DNA of 8,854 nt from Candidatus Poribacteria bacterium. GTDB lineage: Bacteria; Poribacteria; DTPJ01; WJIO01. The stretch spans positions 1-8,854 of the forward strand of contig WJIO01000238.1 of assembly GCA_014730235.1 (NCBI GenBank), read 5' to 3'. Under the pieces are notes generated by a model, which was not told the origin of the DNA, searched no databases, and saw nothing but the letters and a program-made list of their open reading frames with translations. Each line of letters opens with the position of its first letter. Within the stretch, counting starts at the first letter, position 1. The position numbers were made by a program, and so were the translations under genes. Shown piece by piece: positions 597 to 7,038 of this stretch.

Positions 597-3578
597 TTAG
601 CTTTTTATCAAAATAAGATGAGCCAAACCTGGCGAACCATACATCAGGTTATTCTCCATGAGAACCTGACTGCCGCTGACGATAGCCACACTGGCCTGAA
701 GGTTAGCTGAGAACAGGGAGTTCCGCACATGAAGTCCGCGGGATATTTCCCAATCGAGCCCAATTCTATTGCCAATGGCTATCAGACTATCCACCAGAAC
801 GTTACCACAGCTTATATCATACCACAAACCGACGCCATCATTGCCGATGGCCCTATGACCACGAGTGATCATATCCAGCGTGTTATGAATTTTGATTCCT
901 CCAGACGCCCAGCCTCCGCTAACTCGCCAGTTATTAAATGAGGACTCTGTATCCTCCCAGAGGACATTTTGAACTGTGTCCATTGTAATACCACCATACG
1001 CACCATAAAGGGCGCGGCACCGACGAAGCATCACATCCTGGGAATAGCGAATACTCAGTTGGTTATTGTTGTTGTAGCGAAAGGTGCAGTCCTCTATGAG
1101 AATATTGCGATTAGTTAGTTCCTCTGGCTCTGGCCACCATCTGCCGATCATGACCGTTCCATAAGATTCTATGGGTCCCGCGCAATGCTGAAAAATCAAC
1201 CCGCGCAGCACCAGATTGCTCTTATACTTGGACCATAAGAGATAACGCCGTACCGACACTTCAATTTTTGCCTTATTCCACTGGATTCCTTCCGGCGGTC
1301 GGAGGTAGATGCGGTTGCCGTTTTCATCCCGTTCAGCAATACCAAAAGAGCCGGGTGGTAATTTCTCAGGATCAGTCATGCCCACGTAAGTATATATTCC
1401 ATGCTTGTTAATATCCTGTGGTACACCTGGATAGGGATCGATGATCGTGTCCTCGGGGAAAGGCTTGCTTTCCGGAGGCTTATATTCGTAGACTTCCAGC
1501 ATAATCTGGCGAAGGGGTTTGCCGTTCACAAAGGCTAACTCACTTCGATGCTCATAGGGATATTTGGGGTTATTCTGTTTCCAGCCGCCCGGGTTAAAAC
1601 CGAAATCGTAAGGCCATGGATGCTCATAACAGATGATATTATCCATTTCATCCATGACAGGTTTCCAGGTATCCGATGCATAAGCGTCAGAGCCGCTGAT
1701 AACAACACTTCCCGGCTTTGCTGCTTCAATAATCAGAAGCGTATAGGAAGCTTTGCCTTGAGCCGGGATATTCAACTCACCCTCCCTGTATGTTCCAGGT
1801 TGGATGACAACCCGCGTTGGCTTCTCCTGCTTGAGAAATGCAGTCACCGCCTCAAGGGCCTGCGTTATTGTTTGGAATGGTTCTTCCTGACTGCCATTGC
1901 CGCCCGGTTTTGCCATGACATCAACATACAAAATAACTTCCACAACCGATTCGTCTATTTGAGCACCGGTAACGACGCTAAAGTCCACAGGCAGAAAATC
2001 GCCATGCGTTGTCAAACCTGATATCAAATCTCCACTAATAGCGATTCTGGATACACCGGATTTTTTTGTAGCGATATCTTGTTTTTCTACAGTATTTTTG
2101 GCATCTGGTGTAGTCGTATCGGCAAATACGGCAAATTCCCATACGGAATAACCCCAATCAGTACCTCTTTCCGTCATGAATAACCTGATATATCGTCCTT
2201 TGCCAGAAAGACCAGTTATTGAATCACGCCCACCGTCACCTTCCGTAGTAGAATAAATATCTGACCAATCACCATCAGGTCCACCATTATCCGAGACCTG
2301 AATCTGGTATGATTTGGCATCTGCTGATTCCCATTCTATATTAACACCGGTTATCTTATAAGTTTCACCCAAATCATACTCAACCCACTGGATATCAACT
2401 TGTCCCTCGCTGGCCCAGCGCGTATAGATATCACCATCATTCAGATTGGAACCAATTTTCTCACTATGCTCTTTGGAAGAAACCGTCACTTTCTTTTTTA
2501 AGGCAATATTTTCAGAAAGACCCGGAGGCGGCACAGGATTAAATAGACAGTTGACAACACCAGGATGGGCTATGGGCCTTTGTGCATCCTTGACATCAAA
2601 AAGCCCCCATGCATAAGGACCTGTATATGAGAATACCACCCAACCGATATTTTTTAATTCAGCTCGGGATCTCACATAATACGTCCAGTCTATTCTATCA
2701 TCCTGATTGCACTTGTCTGTTGCGCCGAATTCCGTTATGATGACTGGCCTGCCGGTATCATCCGACCACCGCTTTGCGTCATTTAGAGCAATGTCTATTC
2801 TGTTTTTAAGATTGGCGCAACCATCCCATGGCCATCCCTTTCCCCCGCCGCCGTAACCGGCATGAGTGAAACTGAACGGGCGATAGATGTGGATTGAACC
2901 AAGAATGTAGATGTCATCTTTCGGTAAATCCAGCAATTTCAGCTTCTCAGCCGCATTGTAATCTATACTTCCTGCAAGGAGATATCTTTTAGGGCTTACC
3001 ATCCGTATTGCCGTTATCGCCTCATTCATATACTCATTAAGTAAATCAGGATTTTTCCCTAACGGGCTATTCTTGTCAAGCTCCGGTTCATTCAACAAAT
3101 CAAAGACAATCGCACTTTGAGAATATTCTTTGTAGTGACTGGCAATCTGCCACCAATATTCAGCGAATTTCTCTTTCGTAGTATTACCCGCACCGGATTC
3201 CATTACCATAGCGACAGCAATATTCTTGGCACGACAGTCCTCAACAATTTCATCCAGATATCCGAAAAAGTCTTCTCCCAGGTCTTGCGTAAAATTATTG
3301 GAAAACTCAACAACTTTTAAGGGTATCCTTATGGACTGAAATCCCGCGTCACTTATAACTTCCGCATCCCTTTCTATCCATGCAGGGAATTGAGATGATA
3401 CAGTTCCGTAGCTTACAAGCACTCCGATGCCTTTTGTAATTTTGTCTTTCATTTCCCATGGATCCAGATCACCCATTTGTGAAAGGGTGTTTGAGGCAAT
3501 TAACAGAATGCTTGCCATTATTAATATCAAACAAACGGCATGTTTTGATTTAAGATTGAAGTTAATTTTTATATACAT
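597..3578 (-). CDS. Secreted multidomain glycoside hydrolase: GH5 + F5/8 type C + right-handed beta-helix
   Basis: A 993-residue secreted protein. I chose the ATG at 3578 because AAGGA lies 7 nt upstream and a signal peptide follows directly (MYIKINFNLKSKHAV, then a hydrophobic ILIMASILLIAS core). The frame is open 26 codons further, to 3656, but that start would bury the signal peptide. Residues about 40-345 form a GH5-type (beta/alpha)8 glycosidase domain: GFQSIRIPL near 80, acid/base Glu164 in DLLNEPE, HIYRP near 230, and nucleophile Glu283 in VIITEFG. Residues 355-487 are an F5/8 type C (discoidin) domain (NIALKKKVTVSS, NDGDIYTRWAS, VEYDLGETYKITGV, GRYIRLFM). After a linker, residues 549-993 are a parallel beta-helix opening with VDVMAKPGGNGSQEEPFQTI and PGTYREGELNI. 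Both GH5 carboxylates are present, so an active beta-glycanase is likely; the substrate is not evident. The chain ends inside beta-helix repeats, which may mean truncation. It lies 74 bp downstream of the recombinase gene. Confidence 0.88.
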   Translation of the reverse strand: MYIKINFNLKSKHAVCLILIMASILLIASNTLSQMGDLDPWEMKDKITKGIGVLVSYGTVSSQFPAWIERDAEVISDAGFQSIRIPLKVVEFSNNFTQDLGEDFFGYLDEIVEDCRAKNIAVAMVMESGAGNTTKEKFAEYWWQIASHYKEYSQSAIVFDLLNEPELDKNSPLGKNPDLLNEYMNEAITAIRMVSPKRYLLAGSIDYNAAEKLKLLDLPKDDIYILGSIHIYRPFSFTHAGYGGGGKGWPWDGCANLKNRIDIALNDAKRWSDDTGRPVIITEFGATDKCNQDDRIDWTYYVRSRAELKNIGWVVFSYTGPYAWGLFDVKDAQRPIAHPGVVNCLFNPVPPPGLSENIALKKKVTVSSKEHSEKIGSNLNDGDIYTRWASEGQVDIQWVEYDLGETYKITGVNIEWESADAKSYQIQVSDNGGPDGDWSDIYSTTEGDGGRDSITGLSGKGRYIRLFMTERGTDWGYSVWEFAVFADTTTPDAKNTVEKQDIATKKSGVSRIAISGDLISGLTTHGDFLPVDFSVVTGAQIDESVVEVILYVDVMAKPGGNGSQEEPFQTITQALEAVTAFLKQEKPTRVVIQPGTYREGELNIPAQGKASYTLLIIEAAKPGSVVISGSDAYASDTWKPVMDEMDNIICYEHPWPYDFGFNPGGWKQNNPKYPYEHRSELAFVNGKPLRQIMLEVYEYKPPESKPFPEDTIIDPYPGVPQDINKHGIYTYVGMTDPEKLPPGSFGIAERDENGNRIYLRPPEGIQWNKAKIEVSVRRYLLWSKYKSNLVLRGLIFQHCAGPIESYGTVMIGRWWPEPEELTNRNILIEDCTFRYNNNNQLSIRYSQDVMLRRCRALYGAYGGITMDTVQNVLWEDTESSFNNWRVSGGWASGGIKIHNTLDMITRGHRAIGNDGVGLWYDISCGNVLVDSLIAIGNRIGLDWEISRGLHVRNSLFSANLQASVAIVSGSQVLMENNLMYGSPGLAHLILIKS

Positions 3579-3593
3579 TTGTGATCCTTGTCC
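3572..3593 (-). promoter_or_regulatory. Ribosome binding site and start of the GH5 gene
   Basis: Read on the minus strand, the sequence is GGACAAGGATCACAAATG. AAGGA stands 7 nt before the ATG at 3578-3576. This decides between the 993-residue start and the longer frame beginning at 3656, which overlaps the recombinase stop and has no ribosome site of its own. Confidence 0.7.
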
Positions 3594-3652
3594 TACTCTC
3601 TCCTGAATTTGAGTATTCTTGCATATCCCTTCCAAAAGTTGTATGAAGACTC

Positions 3653-4225
3653 TCAATCCCTCTTATCTGATAATTTAGCTCCTTTTTCATTGAGAAGGCG
3701 ATACACAGTCGCCTTTGATACATCGTAGTCTTTCATCAGCGTTTTTATAAGAAAGCCCTGTTTTCGTCTTTCACACATTTCGGCAATCTGCTGCGCTGTC
3801 AATTTTCTCTTCCTGCCAAACTTCACTCCACGAGCTTTAGCTTTCTGTATACCATCAATCTGTCTTTCTGCTCGTAATTCCGTCTCAAACTGTGCAATAG
3901 CTGAGAGCATATTGAAAAGCAAGCGTCCAGTGGCACCACTGGTTTTTATATTCTGATCAAGCACCTGGAGATGAACATTTTTGCCTTTAAGCTGTTCTGC
4001 GATTTGGCACAGATGCAGCGTTGAGCGTGCCAATCTATCCAATTTCGTAACAGCAAGCGTATCCCCTGAGCGGATATATTCCAGACATTCTTGCAGTTTA
4101 GGGCGTTTATCCGATATGCCACTCTTCCTTTCCTGAAAGACTTTATCACAATGGACCAGCTTTTCCAGTTGTATATCAAGGCTCTGTCCCACGGAACTGA
4201 CCTGTGCATAGCCAATGAGAGCCAT
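3653..4225 (-). CDS. Serine recombinase, resolvase/invertase family, with Arg8 changed to Gln
   Basis: A 190-residue small serine recombinase of the usual length for resolvases and DNA invertases. I chose the ATG at 4225: GGAAGGA lies just upstream and MALIGYA is the family's normal N-terminus. An in-frame ATG at 4276 adds 17 atypical residues with no ribosome site. The catalytic domain (1-135) has Ser10 in YAQVSS, Arg41 in SDKRPKL, and Asp63, Arg64 and Arg67 in KLDRLARST. An E-helix follows (SAIAQFETELRAERQ), then GVKFGRKRKLT and a C-terminal helix-turn-helix (AQQIAEM to VSKATVYRLLNEK). The family normally has YARVS; here Arg8 is Gln (codon CAG, one transition from CGG). Arg8 belongs to the active site of Tn3/gamma-delta resolvases, so the enzyme may be crippled for cleavage yet still bind DNA. 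It would act on paired sites in DNA inversion or cointegrate resolution. No transposase gene accompanies it. Confidence 0.92.
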   Translation of the reverse strand: MALIGYAQVSSVGQSLDIQLEKLVHCDKVFQERKSGISDKRPKLQECLEYIRSGDTLAVTKLDRLARSTLHLCQIAEQLKGKNVHLQVLDQNIKTSGATGRLLFNMLSAIAQFETELRAERQIDGIQKAKARGVKFGRKRKLTAQQIAEMCERRKQGFLIKTLMKDYDVSKATVYRLLNEKGAKLSDKRD

Positions 4226-4302
4226 ATTATCCTTCCTGTGTTTACTTATCATAAGACAATTCATACAATGTTTCACTATTTCTAAGACTTTGTGATAATA
4301 AT

Positions 4303-4841: not shown

Positions 4842-5127
4842 TAGCAACCGGGTATCGCTCCATATTTTGATTTCGCCATAGCTTCTGACGTGTTTGGGAC
4901 CAGCAAACCAGATGGATCAATTTGGCGTTGGTGTATGGGGATTTGGCGCTGCCACAATGCAAACCAATGGTCTACAAGATCCTGACTGTACAGCTTTTTG
5001 GGTCTGGGCCGGGCCAAATGATGCTGCTAATGATATTTATCTCCGATTCACAATTCCCGGAACTGCTGTAACACCGGTTAAATCTGCTGGTAAGCTGGCT
5101 GTTTCATGGGGAAGTCTTAAAAAATAA
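4842..5127 (+). pseudogene. Frameshifted remnant of a secreted protein with a GKL-x3-WG C-terminal motif
   Basis: Two frames read like one protein. The first, after the TAG at 4842, gives QPGIAPYFDFAIASDVFG then TSKPDGSI to about 4930. The second, shifted by one base, gives FGVGVWGFGAATMQTN, then DPDCTAFWVWAGPNDAANDI and YLRFTIPGT, and ends with PVKSAGKLAVSWGSLKK at a TAA (5125-5127). The second frame taken alone would need a TTG start at 4894 with no ribosome site, so a decayed gene with a single-base shift fits better than a 77-residue protein. The aromatic, glycine-rich segment suggests an extracellular beta-sandwich, but I recognise no family. The last 17 residues align without gaps with the end of the 6310-7038 protein. 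A long hairpin with a T-rich tail follows 43 bp downstream. Confidence 0.45.
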
Positions 5128-5170
5128 TATTTATTAGATCAGATTGATTTATGATATTATGATAATAGAT

Positions 5171-5245
5171 AGCTCCGTTAGGAATAATAGCTTAGAAATA
5201 CATTTTTCTATAAACATTCCATTCCTAACGGAGCTTGTTTTTCTC
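5171..5245 (+). repeat. Long hairpin with 15-bp perfect arms, possible terminator or mobile palindrome
   Basis: AGCTCCGTTAGGAAT (5171-5185) and ATTCCTAACGGAGCT (5221-5235) are perfect inverted repeats around a 35-nt loop holding TTTCTATAAACATTCC. TTGTTTTTCTC follows on the plus strand, so it could end transcripts from the upstream remnant. The loop is much longer than in ordinary terminators. The pattern of a GCTCCGTTAGGA-type arm with a TTTCTATAAACAT core recalls, from memory, a family of dispersed palindromes in uncultured and anammox-type genomes. Confidence 0.6.
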
Positions 5246-5248
5246 AAG

Positions 5249-5366
5249 TCCTGGTGGCAACGAAAGACGTGCGAAAACTAAAGCTGCAAAAGCAGTAGGT
5301 GTATCAAAACCTACTTTAGCAACTACCTTTTTGTTGCACTGGGGGGAACGGATCGTTGTTTTTTTT
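5249..5366 (+). ncRNA. Candidate structured RNA: three-way junction inside a closing helix, then a T8 run
   Basis: CTAAAG (5278-5283) pairs with CTTTAG (5314-5319). Inside are two hairpins that abut with no unpaired bases: CTGC-AAAA-GCAG (5284-5295) and TAGGT-N8-ACCTA (5296-5313). Outside, 5249-5261 can pair with 5333-5344 (core GCAAC/GTTGC, one bulged G, a few G-U pairs). AACG-GAT-CGTT (5347-5357) with TTTTTTTT (5359-5366) follows and could be a weak terminator. Size and layout resemble a cis-regulatory RNA. Blocks such as GGCAA, CGAAAG, GACG and GCGAAAAC loosely recall c-di-GMP-I riboswitches, but the consensus is not met. No gene directly follows. This is a fold read by eye, with no covariation evidence. 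Confidence 0.35.
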
Positions 5367-5373
5367 CTCCGTT

Positions 5374-5800
5374 ACTACCTAAATACCGAGTCCCATTTAA
5401 GAGTACACCACGCCTCCTACCCTATGCTCCTGATCTGAGCTTACACCAGTCCGGGAGCTGCTCAGGGATGCAGTCAGAGAACGTAACAGTCTGGGAGTTG
5501 GTCCAGATTCGTGTCTTTACTGGTGGGTTATCCTTTCTGGTATGAGGTAAGGTGTATCTGCTGGTATGATGTAACACCAGGATAAGGTAGTGATGTGGAG
5601 TGTCATAAATGAACTTGCCCCCGGAAAGCCAACTATATCACAGAACTTTGAAAGGTCAAGCTTTCCAAAGCCAGATCAATTATCAGCTTATCCTTATCTT
5701 TCTTTACTCAAAATTTCTTTACAAAAGAAAATTTGAAAAAAGAACGCCTGACATTTCAAGAACCTGTGAGGCTTTACTAATAACGGGGGCAATATTTTCA
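5374..5800. other. Stretch without a recognisable gene, with degenerate direct repeats
   Basis: I see no convincing gene here. Two diverged direct repeats stand out: CAGTCCGGGAGCTGCTCAG (5447-5465) against CAGTCTGGGAGTTGGTCCAG (5487-5506), period 40, and CTGGTATGAGGTAA (5537-5550) against CTGGTATGATGTAA (5561-5574), period 24, one mismatch. TTACACCAG or its complement recurs at 5441, 5520 and 5570. An open frame at 5609-5815 has GGAG nearby, but its translation is compositionally odd and it runs through the next promoter, so I do not call it. Confidence 0.5.
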
Positions 5801-5829
5801 TTGATTGGACAATAGGAGCCTGGTATAAT
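5801..5829 (+). promoter_or_regulatory. Sigma-70-type promoter with extended -10
   Basis: TTGATT (5801-5806), a 17-nt spacer and a perfect TATAAT (5824-5829) preceded by TGG (an extended -10, TGn). Transcription would begin near 5836, about 35 nt before the ATG at 5871. This is the best-formed promoter in the window, and it points at the two overlapping small ORFs downstream. Confidence 0.75.
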
Positions 5830-5870
5830 ATTTATAATTATAACAGATTTCTGGAGATGAGGGATGGCCG

Positions 5871-5930
5871 ATGAATAGACGTAGATTGCTTCGCAGTATC
5901 CTATCAGCAAAAGGAGAAAAGTGCGTATGA
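5871..5930 (+). CDS. Possible 19-residue leader peptide
   Basis: ATG at 5871 with GAGGG about 7 nt upstream, encoding MNRRRLLRSILSAKGEKCV. Its TGA (5928-5930) overlaps the ATG of the next ORF in ATGA, the usual sign of translational coupling. It is the first ORF behind the strong promoter at 5801-5829. Candidate roles are a leader peptide or a small basic protein. The RRRLL start resembles the front of a Tat signal, but no hydrophobic core follows. At this length chance cannot be excluded. Confidence 0.35.
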   Translation: MNRRRLLRSILSAKGEKCV

Positions 5931-6094
5931 AACTTCAAAAGACAAAGTGCAATGGGAAATGTCATTTTGCCCGGGCCCTAGCAATCCTACTACTATATGT
6001 TTTGTCAGGTATACCCTTTATTAACTTGGCAGCGGATGATATGTGGACAAAGAAATATGGACGTAACATAATATGGCATGATTTTACCGGATAA
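5927..6094 (+). CDS. Short secreted peptide or truncated secreted protein (55 residues)
   Basis: The ATG at 5927 has AAGGAG about 10 nt upstream. The product starts with a basic region (MKLQKTKCNGKCHFAR), then a hydrophobic core (ALAILLLYVLSGIPFINLA), a good Sec signal peptide with likely cleavage after LAA. The mature part would be only about 19 residues (DDMWTKKYGRNIIWHDFTG) before the TAA at 6092-6094. It is translationally coupled to the 19-codon ORF and driven by the promoter at 5801. Either it is a genuine small exported peptide, or the gene lost its body; after the TAA the same frame stays open for 40 codons. I know no family for the mature part. Confidence 0.5.
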   Translation: MKLQKTKCNGKCHFARALAILLLYVLSGIPFINLAADDMWTKKYGRNIIWHDFTG

Positions 6095-6217
6095 TTATTG
6101 CAGACCAAAACTAAAAACCTGTATAACCTTTATATGATTGGCGTTACATGGATTATTGTCATAATAAGCTTGGTTTTATATAGTTTATATACAGGGAATT
6201 TACATCTTTTGAGATGA
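6095..6217 (+). pseudogene. In-frame continuation with a membrane segment after a stop codon
   Basis: Directly after the TAA at 6092-6094 the frame stays open for 40 codons to a TGA (6215-6217). It encodes LLQTKTKNLYNLY, then a clear hydrophobic segment, MIGVTWIIVIISLVLYSLY. An internal ATG at 6134 has no ribosome site. It could be the rest of a gene broken by a nonsense mutation, or chance hydrophobicity in AT-rich DNA. Confidence 0.25.
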
Positions 6218-6221
6218 ATAT

Positions 6222-6290
6222 GCGTTTTAAGTCATGGGAAAACCTGCATTATATTTGTATCAAACAACTTAAGGCGTGTATTTAAAACGC
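6222..6290. repeat. Inverted repeat in front of the 6310 gene
   Basis: GCGTTTTAA (6222-6230) and TTAAAACGC (6282-6290) are perfect 9-bp complements 51 nt apart. They lie just before the ribosome site of the secreted GATase-like gene. They could form a leader stem or serve as paired operator half-sites. The only promoter-like boxes nearby (TTGTAT 6255-6260, TATTTA 6279-6284, spacer 18) are weak and overlap the second arm. Confidence 0.35.
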
Positions 6291-6309
6291 TCATCTGGGA
6301 GGTATTCTT

Positions 6310-7038
6310 ATGCGCAAGTTTTTACTAGTTTTTTTCCTTTCTTTAGTATTCGCGATAAATTGTATGGCTGAAGTACATGTCCTGGTCCTTGCAGGGAATA
6401 TCAGTCATGCGGAGTTGGCCGTCCTGGAAGGCTTTGATAATGTAAATGGTGAGAAGGTTACTTACGAACAGACAAATGATCGCGGCTTGCCTGGTTTAGA
6501 TGATGCGGACATTCTCTGGATCGGGCAGGGAGAAATTTGCGAAAATGCATACTTCTTCGACGCTGCTACCGAGGGTAAGATAAAGAGCTTTGTTGAAAAA
6601 GGCGGGATCGTAATACCTGTGGGTCAGGACAGCGATGGCGGCAGACCATGTGAAGCAGGCTGGACTCCTGTGCCTATAACGGGAGTTGAGAGAGGTGCCG
6701 TTGAGACCTTTACGGTGACTGATGCTCCGGAAGTAGGTGATCTGTTTACCAAACCTAATGAGATAGCGAACGCTCATTTTGACGATACCTGGACCACGCC
6801 TGATGAACCATATATAATGCTGGCATCCGTAGGTCCCCAGGATATAGGTTTTGCTCTTCTGAAGCATGGTTCAGGCTTCTATATTATTGCTGGTATCGAG
6901 AACGAGAATGCCGATGACGTAGCAGTTAACACCCCTATGATGGAAAATTTGATACATTATGCCATTAATCTGAAAAACAGTGTCGCTGTGGAGTATCGCG
7001 GAAAACTGACATCAGCATGGGGAAAAATTAAGCTTTAA
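6310..7038 (+). CDS. Secreted protein with glutamine-amidotransferase/ThuA-like fold and C-terminal GKL-x3-WG motif
   Basis: A 242-residue protein. The ATG at 6310 has GGGAGG 7 nt upstream. Residues 1-20 are a Sec signal peptide (MRKFLLVFFLSLVFAINCMA, cut before EVHV). AINC does not match a lipobox, so it is probably not a lipoprotein. Residues 21-221 look like a flavodoxin-like class I amidotransferase/ThuA fold: HVLVLAGN at strand 1, DADILWIGQGE, KIKSFVEKGGIVIPVGQDSD, then ALLKHGSGFYIIAGIENE and a last helix MMENLIHYAIN. No Cys sits at a clear nucleophile elbow, so it may bind a ligand or sugar rather than act as an amidotransferase. The final 17 residues, AVEYRGKLTSAWGKIKL, match the end of the 4842-5127 remnant. 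The fold call is by strand pattern, so a divergent ThuA-like or uncharacterised domain is equally possible. It seems monocistronic. Confidence 0.7.
   Translation: MRKFLLVFFLSLVFAINCMAEVHVLVLAGNISHAELAVLEGFDNVNGEKVTYEQTNDRGLPGLDDADILWIGQGEICENAYFFDAATEGKIKSFVEKGGIVIPVGQDSDGGRPCEAGWTPVPITGVERGAVETFTVTDAPEVGDLFTKPNEIANAHFDDTWTTPDEPYIMLASVGPQDIGFALLKHGSGFYIIAGIENENADDVAVNTPMMENLIHYAINLKNSVAVEYRGKLTSAWGKIKL

Follow-up and report, generated by a model that had tools for sequence, protein, structure and literature searches.

C-terminal sorting signals on otherwise unrelated Sec-exported proteins are known from the type IX secretion system (T9SS), where the Type A domain (TIGR04183, Por_Secre_tail, PF18962), an immunoglobulin-like beta sandwich of 70–100 amino acids (aa), occurs dozens of times per genome. 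Type A tails have a single near-invariant residue, a Lys that lies near their C-terminal end (PMC10994853). Here we describe a far shorter C-terminal sequence, hereafter the tag, which ends two genes on a contig of a Candidatus Poribacteria bacterium (WJIO01000238.1; the whole stretch of 8,854 nucleotides is referred to as the window). The tag shares with the Type A domain its position, its occurrence on dozens of unrelated exported proteins per genome and the near-invariant Lys, and genomes with the tag also encode Type A domains, either ending being found on homologous bodies. In contrast, the tag is linear, spans only ~16–20 residues of the form K-L...W-G...K and is matched by no T9SS model.

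In Prevotella intermedia, shortened and long signals have been documented side by side, the former being T9SS tails of 40–55 aa that in models still bind PorV; secretion of green fluorescent protein required only the last 22 residues of the Hbp35 tail (PMC11969387). The P. intermedia tails form a three-stranded sheet with motifs B, D and E, whereas the tag shows neither the sheet nor any of the motifs and does not reach half their length. The Type B domain (TIGR04131, CHU_C; 150–235 aa), which works with PorP/SprF shuttles, offers a precedent for a second signal class with a different shuttle of the PorV/PorP kind, as separate shuttles serve separate tail types (PMC12618676). Type B domains are often encoded beside their shuttle, but no such linkage was seen near the PorV homologues analyzed here. 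Outside T9SS, the PEP-CTERM/exosortase and GlyGly-CTERM/rhombosortase signals are likewise short, C-terminal, placed on unrelated exported proteins and were found by terminal enrichment; they consist of a hydrophobic helix and a basic tail, while the tag has neither and exosortases are nearly absent from the phylum.

The tag and the exported proteins that carry it

The two tails of the window read ...PVKSAGKLAVSWGSLKK (stop, end at 5127) and ...AVEYRGKLTSAWGKIKL (stop, end at 7038). A sequence-only reading of the window had reported that they align without gaps up to the stop codon with 7 identities, and we found both in the positions and reading frames given there. To evaluate this resemblance, genomes were searched with the DNA form of K-L-x3-W-G-x-[ILV]-K, using the reversed pattern as a control. 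The genome of origin gave 53 matches vs. 1 for the control, and 84 Poribacteria genomes together gave 5,632 vs. 44, so the resemblance of the two tails is not due to chance. The pattern was present in all 84 genomes (6–128 matches per genome, median 69), including those in which the matches use different, G+C-richer codons, which bears out the earlier statement that similar endings occur in many Candidatus Poribacteria proteins. When named genomes were scanned with one tagged family, all matches came from Candidatus Poribacteria. Outside the phylum, 51 of 302 genomes had any match, with a maximum of 4 per genome, a level like that of the control. One of the non-Poribacteria genomes (G153) contains two short contigs (L201, L202) on which members of a Poribacteria lamin-tail family lie beside transposase-like open reading frames (ORFs); these contigs are probably mis-binned.

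The consensus of the last ~16–20 residues is [AP]-V-[EDS]-[PA]-x-[GND]-K-L-[TA]-T-T-W-[GA]-x-[LIV]-K followed by 0–11 further residues, and a typical tail reads about V-E-P-x-G-K-L-T-T-T-W-G-x-L-K. Among 231 tagged ORFs the first K was conserved in 87% (R in 12%), L in 74%, W in 89% (F in 10%), G in 81%, [LIV] in 97% and the final K in 99%, the latter lying 0–11 residues, most often 3, ahead of the stop codon. Members of a multicopy lamin-tail-domain family end in either the W form or an F variant (LTTFGxxK), and since both endings occur within this one family, the variant is homologous to the W form. The tag ends 69 of the 79 loci of this family and a classical T9SS tail (TIGR04183) ends one; two run off the contig, and seven were called neither, four of these being visibly degenerate tags. 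We also observed a secreted lamin-tail-domain family with more than 10 highly similar copies in one chromosome, all with the F variant (L216–L233; CATQHZ010000001.1 and AGPOR5).

The position of the tag was examined with a position matrix in a near-complete Poribacteria chromosome (G027, record CATQHZ010000001.1; 1.99 Mb, 1,878 predicted ORFs). Of the matches, 48 lay at the C-terminal end of an ORF and one was internal, in agreement with the proposal that the motif is fixed at protein ends. Over all the DNA retrieved for the analysis, the C-terminal scores were clearly bimodal: 149 of 17,674 ORFs scored above 15 and only 4 fell between 5 and 15. In the LamG proteins, only ~15–25 residues extend beyond the domain.

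The association with export had also been suggested earlier, and it proved strong in G027. Using a crude home-made rule, we called a signal peptide in 39 of 42 short tagged proteins, as compared to 429 of 1337 other ORFs of at least 150 aa (32%; Fisher p 6e-16), and on inspection one or more of the three exceptions seem to have a signal peptide that the rule missed. No predicted transmembrane stretch besides the signal peptide was found in 41 of the 42, and no hydrophobic segment precedes the tag. The bodies have different folds: 25 of 41 tagged proteins match LamG, five are 3-keto-disaccharide hydrolases, and PD40 propellers and other families make up the remainder, with the tag found also on ThuA-like and lamin-tail proteins. 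Every LamG protein detected in the scanned part of G027 is tagged (25/25), while in the ThuA-like family the paralogues lacking a signal peptide also lack the tag. Across the 41 proteins the mean column identity is 13%, and the near-invariant columns are those of the tag. Tandem copies occur among the tagged genes. These data make it almost certain that the tag is a genuine signal at the C-terminus of proteins that Poribacteria export.

Type IX secretion parts and homologous proteins with either tag or classical tail

To look for machinery that might read the tag, profile searches were performed on 81 Poribacteria genomes. A distant SprA homologue (TIGR04189) of about 2,000–2,300 aa was detected in 80 of them, with the copy of the genome of origin on contig C368, and in none of 14 control genomes. 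The G027 homologue scored 157.7 bits over five stretches (E 2.5e-46), which is short of the 200 bits set as the equivalog cut-off. PorV (PF19572) was found in 80 of the 81 genomes, in 76 over the cut-off, and a profile of eleven homologues retrieved the solved PorV structure (6H3I chain F) at E 2.3e-30. The two best Foldseek matches of the PorV model from the genome of origin are the T9SS PorV structures 8GL6 (top) and 6H3I, with FadL ranking behind. Several PorV-family proteins are encoded per genome, so that a shuttle dedicated to the tag is possible, although the gene neighborhoods of SprA and PorV contain no obvious dedicated partner. Every one of the 81 genomes has PorU-like sortases (NF033707), with E values from 1e-13 to 1e-105; none of these exceeded the 420-bit cut-off and two controls also matched, while in profile searches these proteins retrieve solved PorU (6ZA2) at E 3.6e-44. 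The classical tail, of 70–90 aa, likewise occurs in all 81, the number of matches ranging from 9 to more than 60 per genome. The search for a co-occurring processing enzyme that had been recommended earlier has therefore yielded SprA, PorV and PorU as candidate machinery throughout the phylum, and the tagged proteins combine the Sec signal peptide of a T9SS substrate with these three components in the same genome.

The relation of the tag to the classical tail appears to be one of replacement. The two were never found on one protein (no overlap between 149 tagged and 33 tailed ORFs), and homologous bodies carry one or the other. In G027, a 1,162-aa lamin-tail protein ending in LTMFGAVKQQAK, a variant of the tag, is 42% identical over 713 aa to a 2,253-aa protein with a classical tail. 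In the genome of origin, a LamG–cohesin–dockerin protein ends in a classical tail, and single LamG proteins end in the tag. The former protein (L211:8397-11288, contig C153) is 964 aa long and comprises LamG, two cohesin matches, a dockerin and a classical T9SS tail, and thus has cellulosome-like parts.

We propose that the tag is a sorting signal of the outer membrane that is minimal, linear and specific to Poribacteria, and that a divergent T9SS most likely reads it. We assign this reading, whose link to T9SS is drawn from genomics only, a probability of roughly 0.55. Sec would carry the protein into the periplasm by way of its N-terminal signal peptide, and its C-terminal ~16–20 residues would hang loose from the folded part. 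At the outer membrane this tail would be recognized by a sorting machine, in all likelihood a divergent T9SS with a SprA-like translocon and PorV-family shuttles, which would bring the protein to the surface of the cell or release it; PorU-like sortases may remove the tail and anchor the protein. The short tails of P. intermedia, the Hbp35 result, the near-invariant Lys of Type A tails and the use of separate shuttles together make so short a signal plausible. Put more broadly and more tentatively, at somewhat less than even odds, the tag could be a secretion or sorting signal that is a linear peptide and no domain, carried by dozens to more than 100 proteins per genome. Its receptor would be an unrecognized one, belonging either to a divergent T9SS, as a dedicated shuttle of the PorV family, or to an entirely new system for sorting at the outer membrane, and the tag would then be the shortest outer-membrane export signal of its kind. 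The earlier suggestion of a sorting, anchoring or processing tag is supported by these results, the function itself being what we infer.

Several observations weigh against recognition by T9SS. By sequence and size the tag belongs to neither the Type A nor the Type B tail family: it has no sequence similarity to either tail domain, it is far shorter than any known T9SS tail and it lacks the GxY motif. Tagged genes are not clustered near classical-tail genes (7 within 5 genes vs. 6.2 expected). SprA falls under the curated cut-off in all genomes but one, its profile gave no match to solved structures, and the motor protein GldM (TIGR03517) was detected in none of 14 genomes, in a search that also matched no control. 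Moreover, both the tag and the T9SS parts are phylum-wide; as all genomes have both, their presence or absence cannot discriminate between readings.

The strongest competitor is a different Poribacteria machinery that would use the tag as a sorting or anchoring signal for exported proteins, leaving to T9SS only the classical 70–90-aa tails. The dissimilarity of tag and classical tail speaks for it, as do the restriction of the tag to Poribacteria, with noise-level counts in the 302 other genomes sampled, and the division of cargo, the tag being found on small proteins of one domain and the classical tail mostly on large ones. A separate machinery does not readily account for homologous bodies that carry either ending, and no partner for it was identified; the exosortase family PF09721 occurs in only 3 of 81 genomes and is absent from the genome of origin. 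We therefore consider this alternative rather unlikely, though it deserves the most weight after recognition by T9SS. The three genomes concerned have strong exosortase homologues (E 1e-55 to 1e-66; G016:C414, G014:C677 and G002:C421).

It is improbable that the tag is instead a docking peptide, which would bind a surface or periplasmic scaffold in the manner of dockerin and cohesin after export by another route. Such a role would suit a disordered, linear tail with fixed aromatic and basic positions, the many lectin-like LamG domains among the tagged proteins and the cohesin and dockerin domains encoded in the genome of origin; yet the mutual exclusion of tag and classical tail suggests that one tail replaces the other rather than that docking is added, and no docking partner is known. 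Plain paralogy, in which one expanded family would have passed on its tail, draws on the predominance of LamG and on the tandem copies, but we rejected it as very improbable because the tag ends LamG, 3-keto-disaccharide hydrolase, PD40, ThuA-like, lamin-tail and other bodies, forms the conserved block in proteins of otherwise low identity and is lacking in ThuA-like paralogues without signal peptides. Both outcomes that had been named as fatal to the tag thus turned out otherwise, with terminal enrichment evident in related genomes. Equally poor is the case for an encapsulation peptide (microcompartment or encapsulin) or a PEP-CTERM-like exosortase signal, which are also short C-terminal tags on unrelated proteins, since signal peptides exclude a cytosolic compartment and, for the latter, no hydrophobic segment precedes the tag, PF09721 is so rare and the window protein matches no NCBIfam sorting-signal model.

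The tagged genes of the window and their neighborhood

Coordinates of the two tagged genes are collected in Table 1. The fold of the 6310–7038 protein is predicted with confidence (AlphaFold, mean predicted local distance difference test (pLDDT) score 82.7), and its Foldseek matches include ThuA-like 1T0B and glutamine amidotransferase (GATase) folds. In this one model the tag appears as a disordered tail, with pLDDT below 50 for residues 230–242. Neither this protein nor the remnant had a Pfam match at E 0.001 or an NCBIfam match at E 1, sorting-signal models included.

Table 1. Positions of the tagged genes and their signals in the window
Feature	Position	Strand	Basis
Intact tagged protein, 242 aa: signal peptide, ThuA/class-I-GATase-like domain, C-terminal tag	6310..7038	+	ORF, AlphaFold, Foldseek
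Sec signal peptide MRKFLLVFFLSLVFAINCMA	6310..6369	+	read directly from sequence
C-terminal tag V-A-V-E-Y-R-G-K-L-T-S-A-W-G-K-I-K-L	6982..7035	+	pattern match G000:C167:7003-7032; stop TAA 7036-7038
5'-truncated remnant, second tagged gene	about 4882..5127 (ORF 4842-5127)	+	ORF and homologues
C-terminal tag V-K-S-A-G-K-L-A-V-S-W-G-S-L-K-K	5077..5124	+	pattern match G000:C167:5092-5121; stop TAA 5125-5127

The remnant corresponds to the C-terminal third (~75 residues) of a family of 206–224-aa proteins. Two homologues, both tagged, are found in another Poribacteria genome (L155:9197-9814:-, E 1e-24, and L155:9886-10557:-, E 5e-23; 206 and 224 aa). As the remnant matches this family and the 6310–7038 protein has a ThuA/GATase-like fold, the bodies of the two proteins are unrelated, which, together with the signal peptide of the intact one, agrees with what had been read from the letters alone. 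A frameshift in the remnant was considered and is not supported, because the alternative-frame piece upstream has no clear homology.

On the minus strand, a signal-peptide protein with GH5, F5/8C and beta-helix parts (597–3656) has neither tag nor classical tail; that the GH5 protein lacks the motif had been correctly noted. A serine resolvase gene (PF00239 with HTH_7; 3653–4276, minus strand) lies between this protein and the truncated tagged gene and fits a local rearrangement.

Implications for export in Poribacteria

The tag provides a readable marker of the exported proteome for a largely uncultured phylum of sponges and other environments, for which the libraries searched give none. A single-cell study in 2014 saw classical T9SS tails in Poribacteria, did not find the structural genes and concluded that the route 'remains to be revealed' (PMC3909097); the SprA, PorV and PorU homologues in nearly every genome bear on this question. 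If it is true that T9SS reads the tag, a linear peptide rather than a folded domain would be the minimal signal of this system, and this would bear on how SprA and PorV recognize their cargo.

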